From positions 1 to 25,280 of the IMG/VR virus record IMGVR_UViG_3300032289_000249: a stretch of DNA of 25,280 bases. One strand, given 5' to 3'. A program made the translations under genes and the position numbers. Positions 1 through 18,993 of this stretch are shown piece by piece (the first letter of the stretch is position 1; every line of letters starts with the position of its first letter). The notes below the pieces were generated by a model. It was given only the letters and a program-made list of their open reading frames with translations. It ran no database searches and was not told the DNA's origin. This DNA comes from a virus.

Positions 1-77
1 AAAGATGCGTCATCTCGCTCAGAATATCTAATGATATCCTGAACAAGATTGTTGTAGGTCATTACATATGCTGGCAT
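1..77 (-). CDS. Neck/connector-type structural protein, N-terminal fragment
   Basis: Partial gene running off the left edge; only the first 25 codons are present. The peptide begins MPAYVMTYNNLVQDI and continues with IRYSERDD, resembling the start of phage neck or tail-completion proteins, which often open with an MTYxxLVxDIxxYxER pattern. It starts two bases after the stop codon of the adaptor gene, so the two are probably co-transcribed and translationally coupled. The neighbour is a head-to-tail adaptor, which fits a connector role. The fragment is too short for a domain assignment; the family is a pattern-based guess. Confidence 0.6.
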   Translation of the reverse strand, partial: MPAYVMTYNNLVQDIIRYSERDDAS

Positions 78-79
78 GA

Positions 80-1150
80 TTACCTTGTGTAGTAAGAGTA
101 GTTAGGTCTAAGGAAAATTGGTAGTTCGTCTTCCTCGCCGTTTTCAGCGCCTTGTAAATGTTTCATTGCCTGGGCTTCTAAGTACTGAACCCGGTTCAAA
201 TCAATACCCGGCAGTTGTAGCGCCAATTCGTGGCTTAGCATTGCCTGTACGGCGCGCAACCAACGGTTAGGTACGTAGAGCTCGTTGCTAAGATTACCTA
301 CGTCCCAAGGCTGCAGTTCTAATACCATCTGCAACATTTGGAAGTCATTGTTAGGCACAGGCCAGATACGGATTTGTGGGTCAATTTTTTTATCAAACCA
401 ATACTGTAGAGCACGATTAGAGGCAAAGGCTTGCTGTGGAAGTGAAAAGTAATCGTCACGGTTCAAAGGAGCTATCGGGATAACTTGTTGCACGTAGTTG
501 AATGTAATTTGACGCAATGAGAATGTAGATGCTACTGTCTCACGCAATCTGTAGTAGTTGTGGTTGACTGTAGTGTCAATTGGGTAGTATGCCCATGTAC
601 CATCTTGCAAAACAGTCGTAGGTAATGTCTCTATGGTAGACCATGTGCTTCCGTTTTCGCTTGACTCTAAAATTAAATTGTACGTCGCTGAACCACCGCC
701 TGCAACGTAAGCATTAAATCCTACGTTGGTAATTCTTTGACCTGCACTGTAAGATGCACCAAACCAATTATTAGCGCCAGAGATTGACGTTGCAAAACCA
801 TTTAAGTTACCGTCAAACAATGTTGACGCGTTTGCGTTTGCAGTAGGTAGGGCTGCTGATATTTGTGGTGCTACTTGATATGACCAGTTTGCTGCACGAA
901 TACCAATTGTCGTAGCTGGTAGGTCAACCACCTTTTGTCCATTGACAATACCAATTAAAATCTCTTTAATCATCCACAAGTTAACACCTTTGTTAGGTAG
1001 GTCTTGTAGGATGTAGTAAAGAGCTTGCTTGGCAGCGTCAATGTACTGAGGTGTTTGTTCTTCTGCTGTCTTACCAGCGGCACGGAACGCGTACTCAATT
1101 AATTGAGCAACTTTAATTTTAGTTTGGTTTTGTGTGTTTGAGTACGCCAC
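80..1150 (-). CDS. Head-to-tail adaptor-like protein with inserted discoidin-like domain
   Basis: A 356-aa protein in three parts. Residues 1-85 are helical (IEYAFRAAG, YIDAAKQALYYILQDLP, NLWMIKEIL) and end in a short strand, as in the N-terminus of P22 gp4/HK97 gp6-type adaptors and related packaged-DNA stabilisation proteins. Residues about 222-356 (RDDYFSLPQQ, YWFDKKIDPQIRIWPVP, LYVPNRWLRAVQAMLSHELA) look like the conserved C-terminal half of that family. Between them, about residues 92-220, lies a beta-rich segment (LFDGNLNGFA, NNWFGASY, LESSENGSTWSTI, HNYYRLRE) with the look of an F5/8 type C (galactose-binding-like) domain. Such adaptors usually lack it. It probably sits at the head-tail joint and may display a sugar-binding module. 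The adaptor call is fairly confident, the inserted fold moderately so. Confidence 0.65.
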   Translation of the reverse strand: MAYSNTQNQTKIKVAQLIEYAFRAAGKTAEEQTPQYIDAAKQALYYILQDLPNKGVNLWMIKEILIGIVNGQKVVDLPATTIGIRAANWSYQVAPQISAALPTANANASTLFDGNLNGFATSISGANNWFGASYSAGQRITNVGFNAYVAGGGSATYNLILESSENGSTWSTIETLPTTVLQDGTWAYYPIDTTVNHNYYRLRETVASTFSLRQITFNYVQQVIPIAPLNRDDYFSLPQQAFASNRALQYWFDKKIDPQIRIWPVPNNDFQMLQMVLELQPWDVGNLSNELYVPNRWLRAVQAMLSHELALQLPGIDLNRVQYLEAQAMKHLQGAENGEEDELPIFLRPNYSYYTR

Positions 1151-2564: not shown

Positions 2565-2583
2565 AAAAAAAGGCCACTAGGCC
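2565..2583 (-). terminator. Weak intrinsic terminator after lysozyme
   Basis: On the minus strand the lysozyme stop codon sits inside GGCCTAGTGGCC, a 4-bp stem with a TAGT loop, followed immediately by seven T residues. The stem is short, so strength is uncertain. A motif site follows directly, which makes a stop-then-restart junction plausible. Confidence 0.5.
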
Positions 2584-3098
2584 CCATTGATAAACAGTTT
2601 GTGTTCCATGTGTCTTCGCTTTGTCAAGGACTTAGGATTGTCCCAATTCAGCATGGACCTGGCCGCTAACATATAGTCTCCACCGTTTAGATAATAGACA
2701 GTGTGTGAACGTTTAAAATTATCATGTCCAATATTAAAGCAAAGGCTCATTAGAGCGTCGAATTGTCCCTGGGTAAGGGGTAGGGTTACCCCAGACTTAA
2801 TAACGTCCTCACAGGGCCTCATATCGCTTAATAGGAGGTCTTCTACTTGCCTGTCTGACAGGGTGGCGTAGTAAAGGTGTGGCTCATTGTTTCTGATAAG
2901 GTGCCCTACGCCAATGGTCATGTTGCCATATCCATCATCGTAAGCCTGATGTCTAACACCCTCAAAGTGCTTAATAAGCTCGATGGTGGATGTTGTAATA
3001 CCCACTTCCGACTTTTTTAAAGACAGTGGATAATCATGTAAGGTCATGATTATAACGAAAAAAATGTAAACTACCCAGAATGTTAGTCGTGATTTCAT
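2577..3098 (-). CDS. Endolysin: T4-type (GH24) lysozyme with signal anchor
   Basis: A 173-aa muramidase that would cleave the MurNAc-GlcNAc bond of peptidoglycan. Residues 5-20 (LTFWVVYIFFVIIMTL) form a single hydrophobic segment after MKSR, as in signal-anchor-release endolysins such as that of phage P21. The GH24 catalytic triad is visible as E46, D55 and T61 (E-8-D-5-T spacing, within FEGVRHQAYDDGYGNMTIGVGH split by the active-site loop), and C-terminal family motifs FDALMSLCFNIG and NW follow. The ATG at 3098 is chosen because it places the anchor at the N-terminus; a longer upstream reading overlaps the peptidase. The anchor suggests Sec-dependent export, with a holin or membrane depolarisation as the timer. 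The stop is TAG. Confidence 0.85.
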   Translation of the reverse strand: MKSRLTFWVVYIFFVIIMTLHDYPLSLKKSEVGITTSTIELIKHFEGVRHQAYDDGYGNMTIGVGHLIRNNEPHLYYATLSDRQVEDLLLSDMRPCEDVIKSGVTLPLTQGQFDALMSLCFNIGHDNFKRSHTVYYLNGGDYMLAARSMLNWDNPKSLTKRRHMEHKLFINGA

Positions 3099-3113
3099 AC
3101 TACTACTAATGCA
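3094..3113 (-). promoter_or_regulatory. Copy 2 of the late motif, fused to the lysozyme start
   Basis: Minus strand reads TGCATTAGTAGTAGTATGAA, the most divergent of the five copies. The lysozyme ATG (3098-3096) occupies bases 16-18 of the motif, so initiation at the usual GGGA position would give an almost leaderless transcript. It lies just downstream of the peptidase stop at 3118. Lower confidence than copies 1, 3 and 5. Confidence 0.4.
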
Positions 3114-3117
3114 AACT

Positions 3118-3552
3118 TTAGGAAAAAGACCGTGTCCCAGTTTTATCAATAATAAGAGTTTGGCCTCTTGGCGTTGAGCCTTGTTTATCAGGGATACTAA
3201 TGTGTGTCCAAGAATCAAACTCACGGATTAGCTGGTCATACTGAAGCTCTGAGGCAATAATAGCTCGGCACACTGCGTCTGGAGTCATTCCAGGTACTCT
3301 AATATCTGCCGCGCACCCTATTAAATGCTGGCTATTCTTAGAGCCTTTTACAGCGGCATTAACCAACGGACCACGATAAGCTGAGTTAATCATCACCGGC
3401 TTGCCTAATACCTTACGCACTTCTTCTAAAAAATTAGCTAGGCGAACTAGGTTTTGTTGGGCAGTAGGATTTGGAGTGTTATCTAAGTTGTGCCTTAAAG
3501 CCGTTTCACTGATGGTTAGTTCTTCAAGCGTAAAGTTAGGGCTTAGGTTCAT
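3118..3552 (-). CDS. Peptidase M15-type cell-wall peptidase
   Basis: A 144-aa zinc peptidase of the M15A type, likely to cut peptide cross-links of peptidoglycan. The family signature is clear: SAYRGPLVNAAVKGSKNSQH (57-76), GCAADIRVPG (79-88) and SWTHISI (114-120). Expected zinc ligands are H76, D83 and H117. The N-terminal FTLEELTISETA is also typical. There is no signal peptide, so exit would need the adjacent holin. Its ATG overlaps the holin stop (ATGA), linking the two. Together with the downstream lysozyme the phage carries two enzymes that attack different peptidoglycan bonds. One of them might instead act in the virion at entry. Confidence 0.85.
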   Translation of the reverse strand: MNLSPNFTLEELTISETALRHNLDNTPNPTAQQNLVRLANFLEEVRKVLGKPVMINSAYRGPLVNAAVKGSKNSQHLIGCAADIRVPGMTPDAVCRAIIASELQYDQLIREFDSWTHISIPDKQGSTPRGQTLIIDKTGTRSFS

Positions 3553-3947
3553 TTCTTAGCTTTCATATCCATAATCTTCTCTAGCGTACGACCACCAAAG
3601 TAAAAAGACATAATCAACATGCCCCACTGTCCTAGCAGTTCAACATAGGGTTGATGCACATTCATTTCAAACGCACTCATAATCGCAAACGCCGTATATA
3701 CACTCAAAATAAATATAAGTGTTGCTGGGCGTATGTTCTTGGAAAGAAAAGAATCACTAGCCATGTCAGCTTGCTGGCGCTTGGTCAGTTCTTGGTTCTC
3801 AATATTGTCAGCATTAAGTTCAGCCAAACGACCCTCTTGTTGCATCTTCAATAACTCAGCTTGAGCCTTGGCTTTAGCTTCTGGGTCTGGAATAAACTTA
3901 TCTAGCACCTTCATTCCAACATCTAGTATGGATGCAATTGGTAACAT
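3549..3947 (-). CDS. Holin-like membrane protein (GTA holin / 3TM-type)
   Basis: A 132-aa protein. The first 65 residues are amphipathic and charged (DKFIPDPEAKAKAQAELLKM, a pattern shared with the GTA_holin_3TM group). Two membrane segments follow, about residues 73-93 (ATLIFILSVYTAFAIMSAF) and 102-118 (VELLGQWGMLIMSFYFGGR), with the typical end FGGRTLEKIM. It directly precedes and overlaps the cell-wall peptidase gene and follows a small membrane protein, as expected of a lysis cassette. Known proteins of this group are called holins mainly by context; pore formation here is inferred. Confidence 0.75.
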   Translation of the reverse strand: MLPIASILDVGMKVLDKFIPDPEAKAKAQAELLKMQQEGRLAELNADNIENQELTKRQQADMASDSFLSKNIRPATLIFILSVYTAFAIMSAFEMNVHQPYVELLGQWGMLIMSFYFGGRTLEKIMDMKAKK

Positions 3948-5848: not shown

Positions 5849-6922
5849 TTATAATTCCGCAACAAAAGCAACAAAAGCTGATGTTGAATTATCGGCTCCA
5901 AGATAATGAACTCTGCCTGTTGATAAACTACTTGAAACAATGTCTAAATAAGCACAATCAGTACCATTGTTTACGGCACTAACTGACATACTTGATACTG
6001 CTCTAGAATAAGAATAAACATCACTTACTTTTAAATTACTACTGTAAGATAGACTTGGCGATGTTCTAAGTTTTACAGGCATTACAAACGGCCCTTGGCA
6101 TTGTGTTGAACTATAAGAAATAGCGTAACCATTACCAATACCTTCATAAGCACTATTACCTAATAAACGATAGTAATAGCGTTGGCAAAGCTGTAACTCA
6201 GTACCATACAAACGATTTTCAAATGGCGAGGCTGCTGTGCCTTCTTCGAGCTGGACGCCTGTGACTTGCCATGTTGCGCCGTTGGTTCCTACTACTGAAA
6301 CTGCTCCTGTGGCTGACCATGCACTAGGTTTAGAAGTCCATGCGCCAGCTGTGTCAGAATAAGTAGAACCAACACCTAATCCAAACTGAACCATAATACC
6401 GATACCATTAGTTGTCAACCAAGTTCCTGTAGTATCTCCAGCAACTGTTACAGATTTGTATTCCCAAGTATTAGCAGAATTAATTGTAAAACTAAAAGGA
6501 TAACTTCTGTTTTGTGCATTATTTTCTAAAGTTCCACCAAAACTACCAGTTAAACTAGACTTAACCCAAAACGATAAAGTAACTGTAGATGCATTTGCAG
6601 TTCCAAAGCCTAAGTCTGTGCAATTTAAACCTTCAATACATTGGCGAATAAAATAGTAATCAGTAGCACCAACAGAAGTAGCAGCTAAAGAAGTAACCAA
6701 AGTAGAATTTATAAAGCCAGTAGGTGCATCAGATGATTGTGATAAAGAATATTTTGATGATGCACTAGAGAACATCTGCCATCTGTCTAAGCCATAATCA
6801 CCATCAGCAGTAACTGTTCCGCTAAATCCTCTTTGATTTATGCCCATAGCACCATTGATGATACGGTTGCGCATGGTTTGGTTGTTTGAACCCGATTGGG
6901 CGATATTTACGGCATTAGTCAT
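5849..6922 (-). CDS. Tail fibre protein with NRIINGAM module (copy B)
   Basis: A 357-aa fibre protein. After a short 18-residue lead it enters a module (about 19-250) that begins RNRIINGAMGINQR and contains LDRWQMFSS, STVTLSFWVKSS, SYPFSFTI, GDTTGTWLTTNGIGI, VTGVQLEEG and YGTELQLCQRYYYR. The same module forms the middle of the 451-aa fibre at 9048-10403. The module resembles a carbohydrate-binding-like beta-sandwich domain found in many phage fibres. Residues 250-357 are a different beta-rich C-terminal domain, presumably the variable tip. It lacks the MSYIG N-terminal domain found in the other two fibres. The gene overlaps the upstream XkdW-like gene by eight bases. Confidence 0.75.
   Translation of the reverse strand: MTNAVNIAQSGSNNQTMRNRIINGAMGINQRGFSGTVTADGDYGLDRWQMFSSASSKYSLSQSSDAPTGFINSTLVTSLAATSVGATDYYFIRQCIEGLNCTDLGFGTANASTVTLSFWVKSSLTGSFGGTLENNAQNRSYPFSFTINSANTWEYKSVTVAGDTTGTWLTTNGIGIMVQFGLGVGSTYSDTAGAWTSKPSAWSATGAVSVVGTNGATWQVTGVQLEEGTAASPFENRLYGTELQLCQRYYYRLLGNSAYEGIGNGYAISYSSTQCQGPFVMPVKLRTSPSLSYSSNLKVSDVYSYSRAVSSMSVSAVNNGTDCAYLDIVSSSLSTGRVHYLGADNSTSAFVAFVAEL
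6173..6868 (-). repeat. Duplicated fibre module, copy B
   Basis: Encodes the NRIINGAM to LCQRYYY module (residues 19-250 of the fibre). It is homologous to copy A at 9369-10061, with recognisable similarity at the DNA level too, for example around the GDTTGTWLTTNG segment (near 6410-6440 and 9605-9640). Confidence 0.7.
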
Positions 6923-7076
6923 TTAGTTGCTCCTCAGTTGGGCGAGGTAATGTTGGGTGGTTCCAGGCTGCGATGTAGTCACCACGGCCATCGGAATCGT
7001 TTCTTAAACGAATGGTGTCAAGAAAGTCATTAGCTTGTAGCTCAGGGTATAGAGCCATGATTTTGTCGTATAACAT
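6915..7076 (-). CDS. XkdW-like small tail protein
   Basis: A 53-aa protein: MLYDKIMALYPELQANDF, then TIRLRNDSDGRGDYIAAWN and HPTLPRPTEEQLND. The layout (M-LYD-IM--YP, then RNDxDGxG-YI--WN, then P-PT) closely resembles the Bacillus PBSX prophage XkdW family of small proteins found beside tail fibre genes. Start and stop overlap both neighbours (TAATG with the upstream fibre, eight bases with the downstream one), which implies coupled translation of fibre, small protein and next fibre. The role is unknown; a fibre-assembly or baseplate contact is a guess. Confidence 0.7.
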   Translation of the reverse strand: MLYDKIMALYPELQANDFLDTIRLRNDSDGRGDYIAAWNHPTLPRPTEEQLND

Positions 7077-8092
7077 TATGCTGCCCTCACTAATGATGCT
7101 TGGAAATACGTTTCAGTAGATAAAGCACTTACAGAATTTGCACTTCCTCTAGCTTGGTATGCATAAACATCTATGTAATCTGTAGAGCCATTTAAATACA
7201 CTAATGCAGAAACAATACCACTATTGACTGATGCACTACCGCTATCGTTTCCTCTTTTCCAAGAAGAACCATTTTTAAATAAATTTATAATAACTCTAGT
7301 GTCGCCGCTAGTAAAAGCAACTCTTGCGTTTACTTGATAATAGCCAGCTACAGTTGGTGTAAATCTTGAGTTTGATGTATCAAAACAAGAAGCTGTGTCC
7401 CATTCTTCTGTTTGATAATTAACTTTTGTTTCTGTTGCATTGTTAATTGATTGTGAAGAACTTTGATAAGCACTAAACGATGGACCATTGCCTGCCACAC
7501 CGCTTGCCAACTTAGCCTGAGTCACATTGGCATCGGCAATCTTAGTTGTTGTCACCGCACCAGTATTGATATAAGTCTCAGTTACCGCATTAGCCACCGC
7601 AGGGATGGCGTTTAGTACGCTTGATACGAAGAAGCTGATTGTCTCAACCAAGTCGCCAGCCGTAGCACCAGAAGCCAACACGACTGTTGTGCCAGATGTA
7701 GCAGTGAAGTCGGCAGTGCCTAACTTAACGCCGTTACGGTACACGTCAATATAACCGACTGTGTAGCTTGGCACTGAGAATGTAGTCTGACCTGACGTAG
7801 CAGTGAACGTGGTTAGTGTTCTGTAGGCTGTCGTGGCTACGCCTGATGCAGGGATGCCAAGGAAGCGAACAGAGATGTTGCTTGAGCCGCTTGGAGGTGC
7901 GCCAGAGAACGTCAGTGTTACGCCAGATACGCTGTAGGTGGATGGGTCTTGCACCACGCCACTGACTGCCACCAAGATAGATGACGTAGTGGCAGGAGCC
8001 TGACTTAGCGTAAATGCTGTGGTAGAACCATTGCCGCTGAACGTGTCAACGAGAAAGGCTACGGTTGTTGGGATATTACCGATGTAGCTCAT
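7076..8092 (-). CDS. Tail fibre protein with MSYIG head domain and C1q-like tip
   Basis: A 338-aa protein. Residues 1-80 (MSYIGNIPTT, FSGNGSTTAFTLS, VSGVTLTFSGAPPSGSSNISVRF) match the first domain of the 451-aa fibre at 9048-10403, a common virion-attachment module. Residues 91-160 form a second beta domain (TLTTFTATSGQTTFSVP, YIDVYRNGVKL). A short stalk (ETYINTGAVTTTKIADANVTQAKL) leads to residues 200-338, which resemble a C1q/TNF-like jelly roll (FSAYQSSSQSINNATETKV, RFTPTVAGYYQVNARV, LFKNGSSW, VYLNGSTDYIDVYAYQ, TYFQASLVR). The tip probably trimerises and binds a receptor. Confidence 0.75.
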   Translation of the reverse strand: MSYIGNIPTTVAFLVDTFSGNGSTTAFTLSQAPATTSSILVAVSGVVQDPSTYSVSGVTLTFSGAPPSGSSNISVRFLGIPASGVATTAYRTLTTFTATSGQTTFSVPSYTVGYIDVYRNGVKLGTADFTATSGTTVVLASGATAGDLVETISFFVSSVLNAIPAVANAVTETYINTGAVTTTKIADANVTQAKLASGVAGNGPSFSAYQSSSQSINNATETKVNYQTEEWDTASCFDTSNSRFTPTVAGYYQVNARVAFTSGDTRVIINLFKNGSSWKRGNDSGSASVNSGIVSALVYLNGSTDYIDVYAYQARGSANSVSALSTETYFQASLVRAA

Positions 8093-9047: not shown

Positions 9048-10403
9048 TTAAAGTTCCGCAGAAAGGGTTATGGCTGAAGCACCAACATAGGGTTCTAAAT
9101 AATAAGGTCTATAGGCAGTCAAACCTGATGCTGTTGTGCAATCAAAAGAAGTTTTATTCACATCTGATGTAACACTTTGAATACTAATTGCAGTAAGTAC
9201 TGTTCCAGCACTTGCATCAGAAAGTTGGAAAGTTGATGCACCTGTAGTTGTTAATGATGGCTTTGTTCTCATTGGTACTGGATGAGGAGTGTTTACATAA
9301 CCCTTAGTAGAAGAATTTGCAAAACCTAAAGCATATCTATTAGCCGCACTATCAGTATTGCTCATTACAAAACAGTATCTCTGACACAAAGCTAACTCAG
9401 TACCATAAGGTCTGTAATCAAAGCTAGTAGCAGTAGAGCCTTTTTCTAGTTGAACACCTGTGATGTAGAAGGTTGCTCCTGATGTGGCAACAAGATTAGT
9501 TGCACCAGTAGCACTACGATAATCAGCACCAGCCCACGCACCAGCAGTTCCGCTAAGTGTAGAACCAACACCAAGACCAATATACATATTTATACCAAGT
9601 CCGTTAGTGGTTAACCAAGTGCCTGTAGTATCGCCAGCAATAGTAATTGATTTATATTCAAAAGTGTTTGCGGAGCTAATTGTGTAAGTAAACGGATATG
9701 ACCTGTCACCAGCAGAGTTTTGTAATGCACCACCATAAGTGCCTGTTACTGAGCTACGAACCCAAAAGCTAAGAGTTACAGTTGAAGCACTTGCAGTTCC
9801 CCATCCTAAGTCTGCAACATTTAACCCTTCAATTGGTTGCTGAACATAGTTGCGACCATTTGATGCTGGTACTGCTCCTGTACCAACTGTTACGATTAAA
9901 GAATTTTTAAATCCTGTTGGTGCAGTTGTTGATTGTTGAGTTGTATTTCCACTTCCTGAGTCTGTACGAACTACCCAGCGGTCTAAAGTGTAAGCATTAC
10001 CAGCAGCAACACTAGCACCAGCATTACGCTGGTCAATCATCATTGCACCATTGATGATGCGGTTCTTAAAGCTACCACCAAATGTGCCTTGCATGTCAGT
10101 ATTGAACGTGCTGTATGAAACAGTGTTCTGGCTTGGTGTAATAGACTGAGTTGTTGTGCTTAGATAGCGAACATAGACGTTGCTAGTGCCTGAGCTTGGA
10201 GCTGAGGTGAACGTGATGGTTGAGCCACTGACGTTGTATGCGTCGTTAGGTACTTGGACGACGTTGTTAACCACCGCCTGGATGTCGTTGACCGACACGA
10301 CAGGGCGAGACAATGTAAACGCAGTCGTTGAGCCATTGCCGTTAAAGTAGTCAGTTCCGGCTATGAAATTCTGCGTTGTTGGGGTTGAGCCAATATATGA
10401 CAT
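9048..10403 (-). CDS. Tail fibre protein, MSYIG domain plus NRIINGAM module (copy A)
   Basis: A 451-aa fibre. Residues 1-85 are the MSYIG attachment domain (FNGNGSTTAFTLSRP, YNVSGSTITFTSAP, NVYVRYLS) shared with the 338-aa fibre. Residues 115-345 are the NRIINGAM module (NRIINGAMMIDQR, TLDRWVVRTDS, STVTLSFWVRSS, GDTTGTWLTTNGLGI, ITGVQLEKG, YGTELALCQRYCF) shared with the 357-aa fibre. Residues about 346-451 are a unique beta-rich C-terminal tip. It is the only fibre here that contains both shared modules, so it may reflect the ancestral arrangement. It is followed by small paralogue B with one base between. Confidence 0.75.
   Translation of the reverse strand: MSYIGSTPTTQNFIAGTDYFNGNGSTTAFTLSRPVVSVNDIQAVVNNVVQVPNDAYNVSGSTITFTSAPSSGTSNVYVRYLSTTTQSITPSQNTVSYSTFNTDMQGTFGGSFKNRIINGAMMIDQRNAGASVAAGNAYTLDRWVVRTDSGSGNTTQQSTTAPTGFKNSLIVTVGTGAVPASNGRNYVQQPIEGLNVADLGWGTASASTVTLSFWVRSSVTGTYGGALQNSAGDRSYPFTYTISSANTFEYKSITIAGDTTGTWLTTNGLGINMYIGLGVGSTLSGTAGAWAGADYRSATGATNLVATSGATFYITGVQLEKGSTATSFDYRPYGTELALCQRYCFVMSNTDSAANRYALGFANSSTKGYVNTPHPVPMRTKPSLTTTGASTFQLSDASAGTVLTAISIQSVTSDVNKTSFDCTTASGLTAYRPYYLEPYVGASAITLSAEL
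9369..10061 (-). repeat. Duplicated fibre module, copy A
   Basis: Encodes residues 115-345 of the 451-aa fibre. Homologous to copy B at 6173-6868. The conserved blocks are in the same order in both copies. Confidence 0.7.
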
Positions 10404-10960: not shown

Positions 10961-12004
10961 TTATTCCTTGTAAAATTTCAAGTTTTTAATTAGTCGTTCG
11001 TTACTTGGTTCTAACTCTACGGCTTTTAATCCGTGTTTTAATGCTTCTTCTTTTAAACCTAAATAGTAAGCAGCGATAGCTGCTAAGTCATACGGTTTGG
11101 CACTGAATGAATCTGGACTTGCCGTGTAAGAATAATTTGGCTCTGTAATTGCCAGTGCGCTCATCGCAGCACCAAAACTCTCAGACCATAAATTTTTTCT
11201 TTGTGCTGCACTTGCTAACGCAATCCAAGTCTCTCTAACCTTCGGGTCTTCTGCTACACCTTTTCTGTACCACTCCAAACCATCCCTACCCAATGCCTCG
11301 TAAGAGTCGCCAATTAGGCGCATTGCGTAGGCTCTTTCGTTATTCCATGTTGCCTCTGGCATGTCTAGGTACTTCTTCAATGCCACAATCGCCTCTTCCC
11401 ACCTGCTGTAGTATGTCAACTCTCTAGCGTAATAAAATGCGTTGCGAGGACATAGCGGGTCTTCTTTGACTGACATCTCAAGCAGGTCCATGTACTGACC
11501 CCTTGATTTTGTTTCGTCTGGCTTGTGTACAACCATCAACATATCAGACCACACAAACTTCTCGTTTGTCCTTGCGTCTGCTCTGATATATTCATGGCAC
11601 GGATGGTGCCAGTGATACCCACTGCGACTGTGCAACTTGGTAGAGTAAAACACTTTACCGTGTCCCCAGTCAAACTTGTAACCCATGCGGGTTGTGTCTG
11701 GCTGCCACAATCTTTCTATCTCTTGTCTCCACCCTGGCTGAAGCTCTTCATCCAAGTCCAAAGACACGCACACATCAATGTCTCTTGGCAGTAACGCTAA
11801 TGCCGCGTCTCTTGCCTTGTCAAACCGCCACGGTGTGATGCAGATGTCATACACCGTCGCACCACACTCTTTGGCTATCTCAACCGTCTTGTCTGTAGAG
11901 CCTGTGTCGGCTATTACAATCAAATCTGCTTCTTTAGCTGATTCACAAAAACGTTTAACAAATTGTTCTTCATTTTTACTAATTGCATATATCGCAATTT
12001 TCAT
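10961..12004 (-). CDS. GT2-family glycosyltransferase with TPR-like C-terminus
   Basis: A 347-aa enzyme. The N-terminal GT-A fold begins KIAIYAISKNEEQFVKRF and has the nucleotide-binding stretch IADTGSTDKTVEIA (31-44) and a DLD metal-binding motif at 83-85 (VSLDLDEEL). His-rich YHWHHPCHEY follows. From about residue 160 the protein is helical with TPR-like repeats (EDPLCPRNAFYYARELTYYS, EEAIVALKKYLD, ERAYAMRLIGDSYEAL, EALKHGLKAVELEPSNERLI), which often bind a protein acceptor. It would transfer a sugar from an activated donor. It follows the collagen-like gene by 13 bases with a strong AGGAG site, so glycosylation of that fibre's Thr residues is a reasonable idea. Modification of host envelope glycans is the alternative. 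Confidence 0.8.
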   Translation of the reverse strand: MKIAIYAISKNEEQFVKRFCESAKEADLIVIADTGSTDKTVEIAKECGATVYDICITPWRFDKARDAALALLPRDIDVCVSLDLDEELQPGWRQEIERLWQPDTTRMGYKFDWGHGKVFYSTKLHSRSGYHWHHPCHEYIRADARTNEKFVWSDMLMVVHKPDETKSRGQYMDLLEMSVKEDPLCPRNAFYYARELTYYSRWEEAIVALKKYLDMPEATWNNERAYAMRLIGDSYEALGRDGLEWYRKGVAEDPKVRETWIALASAAQRKNLWSESFGAAMSALAITEPNYSYTASPDSFSAKPYDLAAIAAYYLGLKEEALKHGLKAVELEPSNERLIKNLKFYKE

Positions 12005-12017
12005 GTACTGCTCCTAA

Positions 12018-13406
12018 TTAAAACGTGCCGCCACTCACTCCGATGTAAGCTGTTGCGGTTATTGTACCAGCACTGAAATTACCGTTTGTATCGCGCTGTA
12101 CCAGCGCGCTTGCGGTGTTTGCACTTGCTGCCACTAATGACGTGCCCCACGCCGTGCCAGTGGATACTGCCACGCCAGAGGCTGGGTATGTTGTAGGTCC
12201 TGTCGGTCCTGTGTCACCAGTCGGGCCAGTGGGTCCAGTCCATCCTGTCGGACCAGTGGGGCCTTGAGGTCCAGTGTCACCTGTCGGACCTGTTGGTCCT
12301 TGAATGCCTTGTGGACCAGTCCAGCCAGTTGGACCTGTTGGTCCTTGAATGCCTTGCGGTCCAGTAGGGCCTGTCGGGCCTTGTGGTCCTGTGTCACCAG
12401 TAGGACCCTGTGGTCCAGTAGGGCCTTGCGCGCCGCTAACAATTGCCAAGAACAACGGCAAGTTGTTTGCAAAGTTTGTCGCGCCCGTGCCACCTGATGA
12501 GGTGATTGTTACTGGCACCGTCCAGTAGCTGTTAGCCGTGTTAGGGTTAACGTTGGTTGGTGTGCCGTTAATTGTCCAAGTCTGAAAGTTTCCACTAACG
12601 GTTTGGTCTTGGATTGTAATGACTTCGGTATTTACCAGTGTATCTAAGAAAATATCAATGTCAATATTGTTATCTGTTAGATGGTGGATATTAAGTTGTG
12701 TAGCACTGGTTTGTGTGGCGTTATTCCACACGATAAATCCTGCAGTTGGGTCACCACTTGTTATCGTGGTGTTCGCCTTGTATAAAAACAAACTGGATGA
12801 TGAACCTTGTGGTCCTGTCGGTCCAGTGGCGCCTTGTATGCCTTGAGGTCCAGTAGGTCCAACAACGCCTGTCGGACCAGTGGGTCCTTGAATGCCTTGT
12901 GGTCCTGTCGGTCCTAAAGGTCCTGTATCGCCTGTCGGTCCTTGAATGCCTTGTGGTCCTGTCGGTCCTTGGATGCCTTGAGGTCCTGTCGGTCCTTGAA
13001 TGCCTTGTGGTCCTGTAGGTCCAGTTGGTCCTGTGTCGCCTGTTGGTCCTACGGGTCCTATTGGTCCTGTTGAGCCTTGTATACCTGTCGGACCAGTTGG
13101 TCCGGTTGAGCCTTGTATTCCTTGCGGTCCTGTTGGTCCGGTTGAACCAGTGGGTCCTGTTGCGCCTTGTATGCCTTGAGGTCCAGTCGGTCCGGTTGAA
13201 CCAGTTGGTCCTGTTGCACCTTGTGAACCTGTAGGACCTGTCGGTCCTGCGTTGCCCTGTGGTCCAGTAGGACCAGTTGGGCCACCAAGATTAGAAATAT
13301 CTTGCAGCTGAGTTTGTTTTGTAACGCCGTTTTGTACAACTACAGTAACCTCATTGCCCGTTAACGGACCGGCTACTTGTAGTTGTGATATCGATTGGTC
13401 AGCCAT
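12018..13406 (-). CDS. Collagen-like fibre protein with two GPT-rich blocks
   Basis: A 462-aa protein. The N-terminal domain (1-40, [20 protein letters not shown]) is a phage attachment-type sequence. Collagen-type Gly-X-Y repeats follow in two blocks, about 41-201 and 327-405, dominated by [12 protein letters not shown] and GDTGPT. A globular beta domain of about 125 residues separates them ([20 protein letters not shown] ... PLFLAIVSG). The C-terminal end ([20 protein letters not shown]) is a motif common before phage fibre tips or intramolecular chaperones. Viral and bacterial collagen-like proteins form trimers without hydroxyproline. Thr is unusually frequent at position Y, a possible glycosylation site, and a glycosyltransferase gene is directly downstream. 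Confidence 0.85.
12192..12428 (-). repeat. Collagen-type repeat block 2 (Gly-X-Y codons)
   Basis: Repeating 9- and 18-base units encoding GPT/GPQ/GDT triplets, residues about 327-405 of the fibre. Similar sequence to block 1 suggests slippage or recombination between them. Confidence 0.8.
12804..13286 (-). repeat. Collagen-type repeat block 1 (Gly-X-Y codons)
   Basis: About 53 Gly-X-Y triplets, residues 41-201, with higher-order GPTGPQGIQ units repeated in tandem. Minor breaks such as GVVGPT are still in register. Confidence 0.8.
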
Positions 13407-18555: not shown

Positions 18556-18993
18556 TTAGTCTACAAAGGCCTTCATTTTTTGTGCAAATTCAAAGCTCTT
18601 AATCTTTGAAATGACTTCACGAGCTTGTAATGTAATAAACACTACAGGTGCTCCGCCATCTTCTGGATTAACAACAAACCGGTCACCACCATATTTAATG
18701 GTACGAACTAAGTCGCCTTCTTTGCACCAAGGACCTTCAATCCAAGGAGCTAGGTCTTCTAAGTTCTTGTATGCTAAGGGGCCAACTTGCACCACTTTAG
18801 CTACCGTTTCGTTAAACCTTAACGTTTGCTTGGTCTCATCCACCAGGATAATACCGCCTTTGCTGGTTGTTTTTTCTCGTCTTAATTGTACAAGAACTCG
18901 GTCACCAACTACCTCAACGCCTGGGTCTACATTAGGAAAACATTCTGCTTCCGAACGTAAATCTGGTTCGTCTTTACTTGATATATCAAACAA
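18556..18993 (-). CDS. GroES-like co-chaperonin
   Basis: A 145-aa phage co-chaperonin expected to cap host GroEL and help fold the capsid protein, as T4 gp31 does. The core runs from about 27 to 130: VEVVGDRVLVQLRREKTTSK, the mobile loop with GGIIL (46-50, the I-I-L matching the IVL tripeptide of GroES), VAKVVQVGP, GDLVRTIKYGG and the end VVFITLQAREVISKI. The 20-25-residue extensions at both ends make it longer than bacterial GroES (about 97 aa). No in-frame ATG exists near the start; TTG at 18993 is chosen because AGGAG lies nine bases before it. An ATG-TAA lies between them. It precedes the scaffold gene, consistent with a head-assembly role. Confidence 0.85.
   Translation of the reverse strand: MFDISSKDEPDLRSEAECFPNVDPGVEVVGDRVLVQLRREKTTSKGGIILVDETKQTLRFNETVAKVVQVGPLAYKNLEDLAPWIEGPWCKEGDLVRTIKYGGDRFVVNPEDGGAPVVFITLQAREVISKIKSFEFAQKMKAFVD

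Follow-up and report, generated by a model that had tools for sequence, protein, structure and literature searches.

A predicted discoidin-like domain interrupts the head-tail adaptor in a clade of phages

Introduction

The gene found at positions 80-1150 of a viral DNA (IMG/VR record IMGVR_UViG_3300032289_000249, positions 1 to 25,280; the whole stretch of 25,280 nucleotides is hereafter called the window) was described in a first-pass annotation, made from the letters alone, as encoding one head-tail adaptor fold broken at about residues 92-220 by a discoidin-like domain. Is this segment a genuine insertion, in which phages does it occur, and what may such a domain do on an adaptor ring?

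The interrupted adaptor gene

The reading frame exists, and the peptides LFDGNLNGF, NNWFGASY and SSENGSTWSTI, held to be features of F5/8 type C domains, are all present in its product. The features of the gene are the following.

80..1150, minus strand: insert-bearing head-tail adaptor gene, 356 aa, GTG start (ORF call, SU10_adaptor and F5/8C matches, AlphaFold2 model)
878..1150, minus strand: N-terminal part of the adaptor core, residues 1-91, with a pair of helices and the first of the dock-like strands (aligned to insert-less adaptors)
491..877, minus strand: inserted discoidin/CBM32-like domain, residues 92-220 (Pfam F5/8C, Foldseek CBM32, missing from insert-less relatives)
806..817, minus strand: F-D-G-N motif, residues 112-115, aligning to the DGN loop of F5/8C domains (alignment to 3f2z)
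83..490, minus strand: C-terminal part of the adaptor core, residues 221-356, remaining strands and two C-terminal helices (alignments, model)

Profile searches matched the protein to both of the expected families, in each case below the curated cut-off. The score against Pfam SU10_adaptor (PF24175) is 21.8 bits (E=2.8e-4; cut-off 27), and F5_F8_type_C is matched by residues 102-194 with E=0.003 when the whole protein is searched. The PF24175 cut-off is passed by CRP-902 and DSL-LC04, insert-less proteins that have the same core, and by MW202675. No match to PDB sequences was obtained by phmmer. The AlphaFold2 model of the full protein (mean pLDDT 83, with residues 342-356 of low confidence) is not a single continuous fold, and has a separate domain at about residues 92-220. 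The N-terminal core is made of helices 14-24 and 34-54 and strands 60-68, 74-76 and 81-93; the C-terminal core includes strands from 227-229 to 290-292, followed by helices 295-312 and 318-337. Residues 1-91 and 221-356 are a single head-tail adaptor fold. Portal, capsid and terminase matches are found in the window, and a nozzle match downstream in a relative. The product is probably a ring-forming adaptor of a short-tailed phage; the ring would have 12 copies, with the domain presumably exposed outward.

Other genes of the window are worth recording. A GroES-like co-chaperonin (18556-18993, minus strand; Cpn10 E=1.5e-7) is encoded between the portal and capsid genes, and the same gene occupies the equivalent place in ctpbd312 and in Caulobacter phage RW. 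A lysis cassette at 2577-3947 (minus strand) consists of a phage lysozyme, an overlapping peptidase M15 family protein and a GTA-type holin.

Identity of the inserted domain

Residues 92-220 or thereabouts are confidently predicted to form an F5/8 type C (discoidin/CBM32) beta-sandwich. The greater part of the segment has pLDDT of about 91-94, and CBM32 and F5/8C structures are retrieved from the PDB by Foldseek with the full model at probability 1.00 (for example 7d2a_A, TM 0.76 on target, rmsd 3.1 A); APC10 and galactose-oxidase domains are among the further matches. Searched alone, the segment scores 21.2 bits against Pfam F5/8C (E=3e-4; cut-off 28.2), and several relatives outscore it, the same segment reaching E=3.2e-5 and 1.4e-5 in related phages. 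Profile searches of PDB sequences returned mainly F5/8C, CBM32 and lactadherin chains, with weak E-values. The profile of 58 relatives hit four chains with E up to 1, all within the insert: 3f2z (E=0.008), two CBM32 entries and lactadherin. Both 3f2z and the lactadherin fragment are F5/8C-type domains. The F112-D113 pair is conserved in both of the full-length insert types described below, those of the window and of ctpbd312. No second copy of the domain was detected by the insert profile in the other ORFs of the window and of the relatives' loci searched with it.

Insertion site and adaptors lacking the domain

When residues 92-220 are deleted from the query, the protein aligns, mostly end to end, with phage adaptors of about 220-230 aa that have no interruption. 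These include proteins of MW202675, of the Roseobacter phages CRP-901 and CRP-902, of Pelagibacter phage HTVC023P, of DSL-LC04 and of an Alcaligenes phage, and the matches span 75-100% of the deleted query in one piece. At the site the insert-less adaptors hold 3-9 residues, a turn that joins the same two strands, and the core aligns on both sides. In a profile-profile comparison of the window type with the insert-less family, 228 core columns were aligned at 99.1% probability and the insert was skipped. The order of helices and strands in the model of an insert-less relative (AlphaFold2; mean pLDDT 72, pTM 0.44) is that of the 80-1150 model. An apparent insert-less family member of 350 aa (L195) carries its surplus sequence at the C-terminal end and has no insertion.

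It is scarcely credible that the segment belongs to the normal adaptor fold. Such a reading could appeal to the Pfam scores, which lie under the curated cut-offs; structure and profile searches nonetheless indicate F5/8C and CBM32, and relatives keep the flanking strands without any such domain, so that the uninterrupted homologues refute it. Many homologues do without the segment, and it is thus not a core part in all of them. On alignment, structure prediction and the relatives devoid of it, the earlier view of one adaptor fold broken by a discoidin-like domain holds, and the proposed boundaries were right to within a few residues. In the full model strands 81-93, before the site, and 211-225, after it, cross the boundary. 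As these flanking strands continue into the domain, the latter is predicted to be rigidly mounted, and it would stand out from the adaptor ring.

Distribution of the insertion

Stretches related to the window type number at least 541 in IMG/VR. Eighty of these loci were examined, and nearly all match the window protein over its full length, insert included. Scans for the ctpbd312 and Caulobacter RW types returned 289 and 178 stretches, respectively, in sets that may overlap with each other and with that of the window type. Insert-less adaptor families are common too. In a tree built on 222 core columns all the insert-bearing proteins fall together (support 99), and window and ctpbd312 types are joined at 100. 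The insertion hence marks a single clade with three sub-lineages, the window, ctpbd312 and Caulobacter phage RW types. Comparison of the insert profiles relates the window to the ctpbd312 type at 99.2% probability, and the RW type to the other two at 96.4% and 98.3%. Cultured phages bearing the shortened RW form are the Caulobacter phages RW, GB2A, RLK and KcrB; the laboratory host of RW is CB15. No relative was found by a search of genome contigs, which gave no host or prophage link.

Among the window-type proteins divergence is faster in the insert than in the core: mean pairwise identity is 0.59 for the former versus 0.72 and 0.69 for the two core parts, and entropy 1.12 versus 0.71 and 0.81 bits. 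The insert nevertheless has no hypervariable patch.

A second adaptor

The first-pass annotation placed the domain at the neck, in 12 copies per virion. One correction to it is that the phage group encodes two proteins of the adaptor family, and the domain is found on only one of them. The beginning of the second gene lies next to the interrupted one.

1..77, minus strand: second adaptor gene, first 25 codons, cut by the window edge, translation MPAYVMTYNNLVQDIIRYSERDDAS

This product is 64% identical over 22 residues (E=1.2e-4) to the second adaptor of a relative. In the relative G004 the next gene encodes an uninterrupted 206-aa protein matching SU10_adaptor (E=5e-22), followed by a 421-aa protein and by one of 700 aa with a match to the VP1 nozzle (E=1.3e-5). 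Similar proteins are encoded by relatives of all three insert types and by four insert-less phages. The second adaptor is the next gene in the window type, and is found several genes downstream in ctpbd312 and RW. Given a second SU10-type adaptor and a nozzle gene downstream, a short-tailed phage of this kind probably has two adaptor rings, of which the interrupted protein forms one. Two rings would not be unusual, since between one and three dodecameric adaptors have been described for Gram-negative podophages (PMC11784390). In the seven records searched, the P22-type nozzle family PF11134 was not found; one ctpbd312 gene carries the annotation "phage stabilization protein".

G004 also encodes (L495 5380-8688, minus strand) a protein of 1102 aa with a DUF6321 domain at its C-terminal end (E=8e-22), preceded by an M23-peptidase-domain protein. 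Both are candidate ejection proteins.

Possible roles of the domain

The fold, the insertion site, the relatives without insert, the single clade and the second adaptor are supported by the computation. What the domain does can be approached from its position. The idea that adaptors normally form a plain ring does not fit the T7/SU10-type proteins: a fibre-dock domain is present in the SU10, T7 and KP32 adaptors, those of P22 and Sf6 being without one (PMC9509320), and the P-SCSP1u adaptor likewise has it (PMC10575957). In SU10, T7 and P-SCSP1u, fibres are held on this domain (PMC9509320, PMC10575957). Foldseek aligned one phage protein, from the cyanophage A4 portal-tail complex, to the full model over 353 columns; the insert-less relative retrieved neck or adaptor proteins of VP1, A4, Pa223, GP4, KHP30, SU10, B2, N4 and crAss001. 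E-values of the insert-less model against the solved adaptors are good and TM-scores low (0.28-0.43). No adaptor was found by sequence when the PDB was searched with the profile of the insert-less family. The elements of the adaptor fold, a helix bundle and a dock-like beta region, follow the same order in both models, which Foldseek relates to the A4, VP1, GP4 and SU10 adaptors with low TM-scores. Judging from this order, the insertion would fall in the beta region that matches the T7/SU10-type tail-fibre dock.

Two fibre-type proteins of the window are of interest in this respect.

9048..10403, minus strand: fibre-type protein whose N-terminus resembles that of the T7 tail fibre, a candidate partner for the adaptor ring (Phage_T7_tail E=0.0021, under the curated cut-off)
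7076..8092, minus strand: another fibre-type protein, similar at the N-terminus (its first 80 residues align with those of the 9048-10403 product; weak C1q-like match, E=0.015)

The fibre-type proteins encoded at 5849-6922 and 9048-10403 (minus strand) have a long stretch of their central and C-terminal parts in common, but only one of them has the T7-like N-terminus. The pattern looks like module exchange or duplication in the fibre block.

A CBM32/discoidin beta-sandwich may have been inserted once, in the ancestor of the clade, into a short turn between strands of the dock-like region, and would serve as an enlarged docking surface for a decoration protein such as a fibre or a spike. This docking role is the favoured reading, with a probability of roughly 0.5, because the domain lies in the dock-like part of the adaptor, fibre proteins with T7-like N-termini are encoded in the window, and RW keeps a reduced domain without the DGN loop. 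Several points tell against it. Fibres might attach to the second adaptor or to the nozzle; TM-scores and the pTM of the insert-less model are low, and the fibre N-terminus scores under the Pfam threshold; genuine carbohydrate-binding modules have the same fold as the insert, and the DGN motif is kept in two of the three lineages.

On these last two grounds glycan binding is the next reading to be weighed, and it is a tenable, if tentative, one. The domain would be a working lectin, and its copies in the ring would together bind polysaccharide of the host or matrix, weakly and multivalently, either ahead of the fibres or alongside them. CBM32 domains, several of them solved with sugars, are indeed the best structural matches, the F-D-G-N motif is retained in the window and ctpbd312 types, and the faster divergence of the insert points the same way. 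F5/8C folds, however, bind proteins and lipids too, the loops are not hypervariable, and the RW type has lost the N-terminal part carrying the DGN loop. Docking and glycan binding might both hold. A variant that seems rather doubtful is that a lectin ring on one of the two neck adaptors makes an adhesion collar apart from the fibres, gained once and remodelled by the RW lineage into a sugar-independent dock.

A collagen-repeat protein (12018-13406, minus strand; Pfam Collagen E=1.9e-36) is encoded within the block of structural genes; downstream of it, at 10961-12004, is a glycosyltransferase gene. The first-pass suggestion that the domain might hold whiskers would make it the anchor of a whisker or collar, with a collagen-like fibre such as this as its cargo. 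Location in the same block as the adaptor is compatible with the proposal, as is a homologous gene seemingly present in a relative (ORF starting MADQPITGLPV, L496); but no link in sequence or structure was found between collagen-like protein and adaptor, and the former could be a fibre shaft attached elsewhere. Anchoring of whiskers is accordingly improbable, and docking of a fibre or decoration protein remains the preferred reading.

Relation to known systems

The insertion of this domain in a known virion part is real and widespread, and apparently undescribed: no published account of a phage adaptor bearing a discoidin, F5/8C or CBM32 domain was found in a partial coverage of the literature that included few subscription journals. 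If the domain binds sugar, these phages would have adhesion sites both on their fibres and on the neck ring; if it serves for docking, a carbohydrate-binding fold would have been recruited as a virion attachment point. In either case the domain allows a large and poorly annotated group of mainly environmental phages to be recognised, and the cultured Caulobacter phages with the shortened form make structure and deletion tests feasible.

The architecture is already in databases, as the uncultured phage protein A0A6J5RSL2 (BFVD), labelled merely uncharacterised protein, matches the full-length structure (TM 0.78-0.79 over 364 columns). Many other viral proteins of 280-420 residues in BFVD match along the full length of the adaptor, a hint that different extra domains are carried, at or near this site, by other adaptors.

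Among the closest known proteins, two have the same core and a domain inserted at the same site: the ctpbd312 (MW202545) adaptor and gp76 of Caulobacter phage RW. The ctpbd312-type insert is about 26% identical to that of the window type; the RW-type insert, 98 residues long, lacks the N-terminal part including the DGN loop and keeps the later strands of the sandwich. The insert-less adaptors of MW202675, CRP-901/902, HTVC023P and DSL-LC04 have a homologous core (21-25% identity, most aligned end to end), and feature a few residues where the window protein hosts the domain. With CBM32 and F5/8C domains (PF00754; AlyQ CBM32, 7d2a) the insert has in common the predicted beta-sandwich, but is only about 15% identical and lies inside a virion ring protein. 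The SU10/T7 gp11-type adaptors (PF24175; SU10 gp11, T7 gp11, KP32 TTPA, P-SCSP1u gp22) have the same order of helix pair, beta region and C-terminal helix pair, and Foldseek ties the insert-less relative to the SU10, KP32, VP1, GP4 and cyanophage A4 adaptors. From the gp11-type adaptors the window protein differs by about 129 extra residues, predicted to form a separate discoidin-like domain at one turn.
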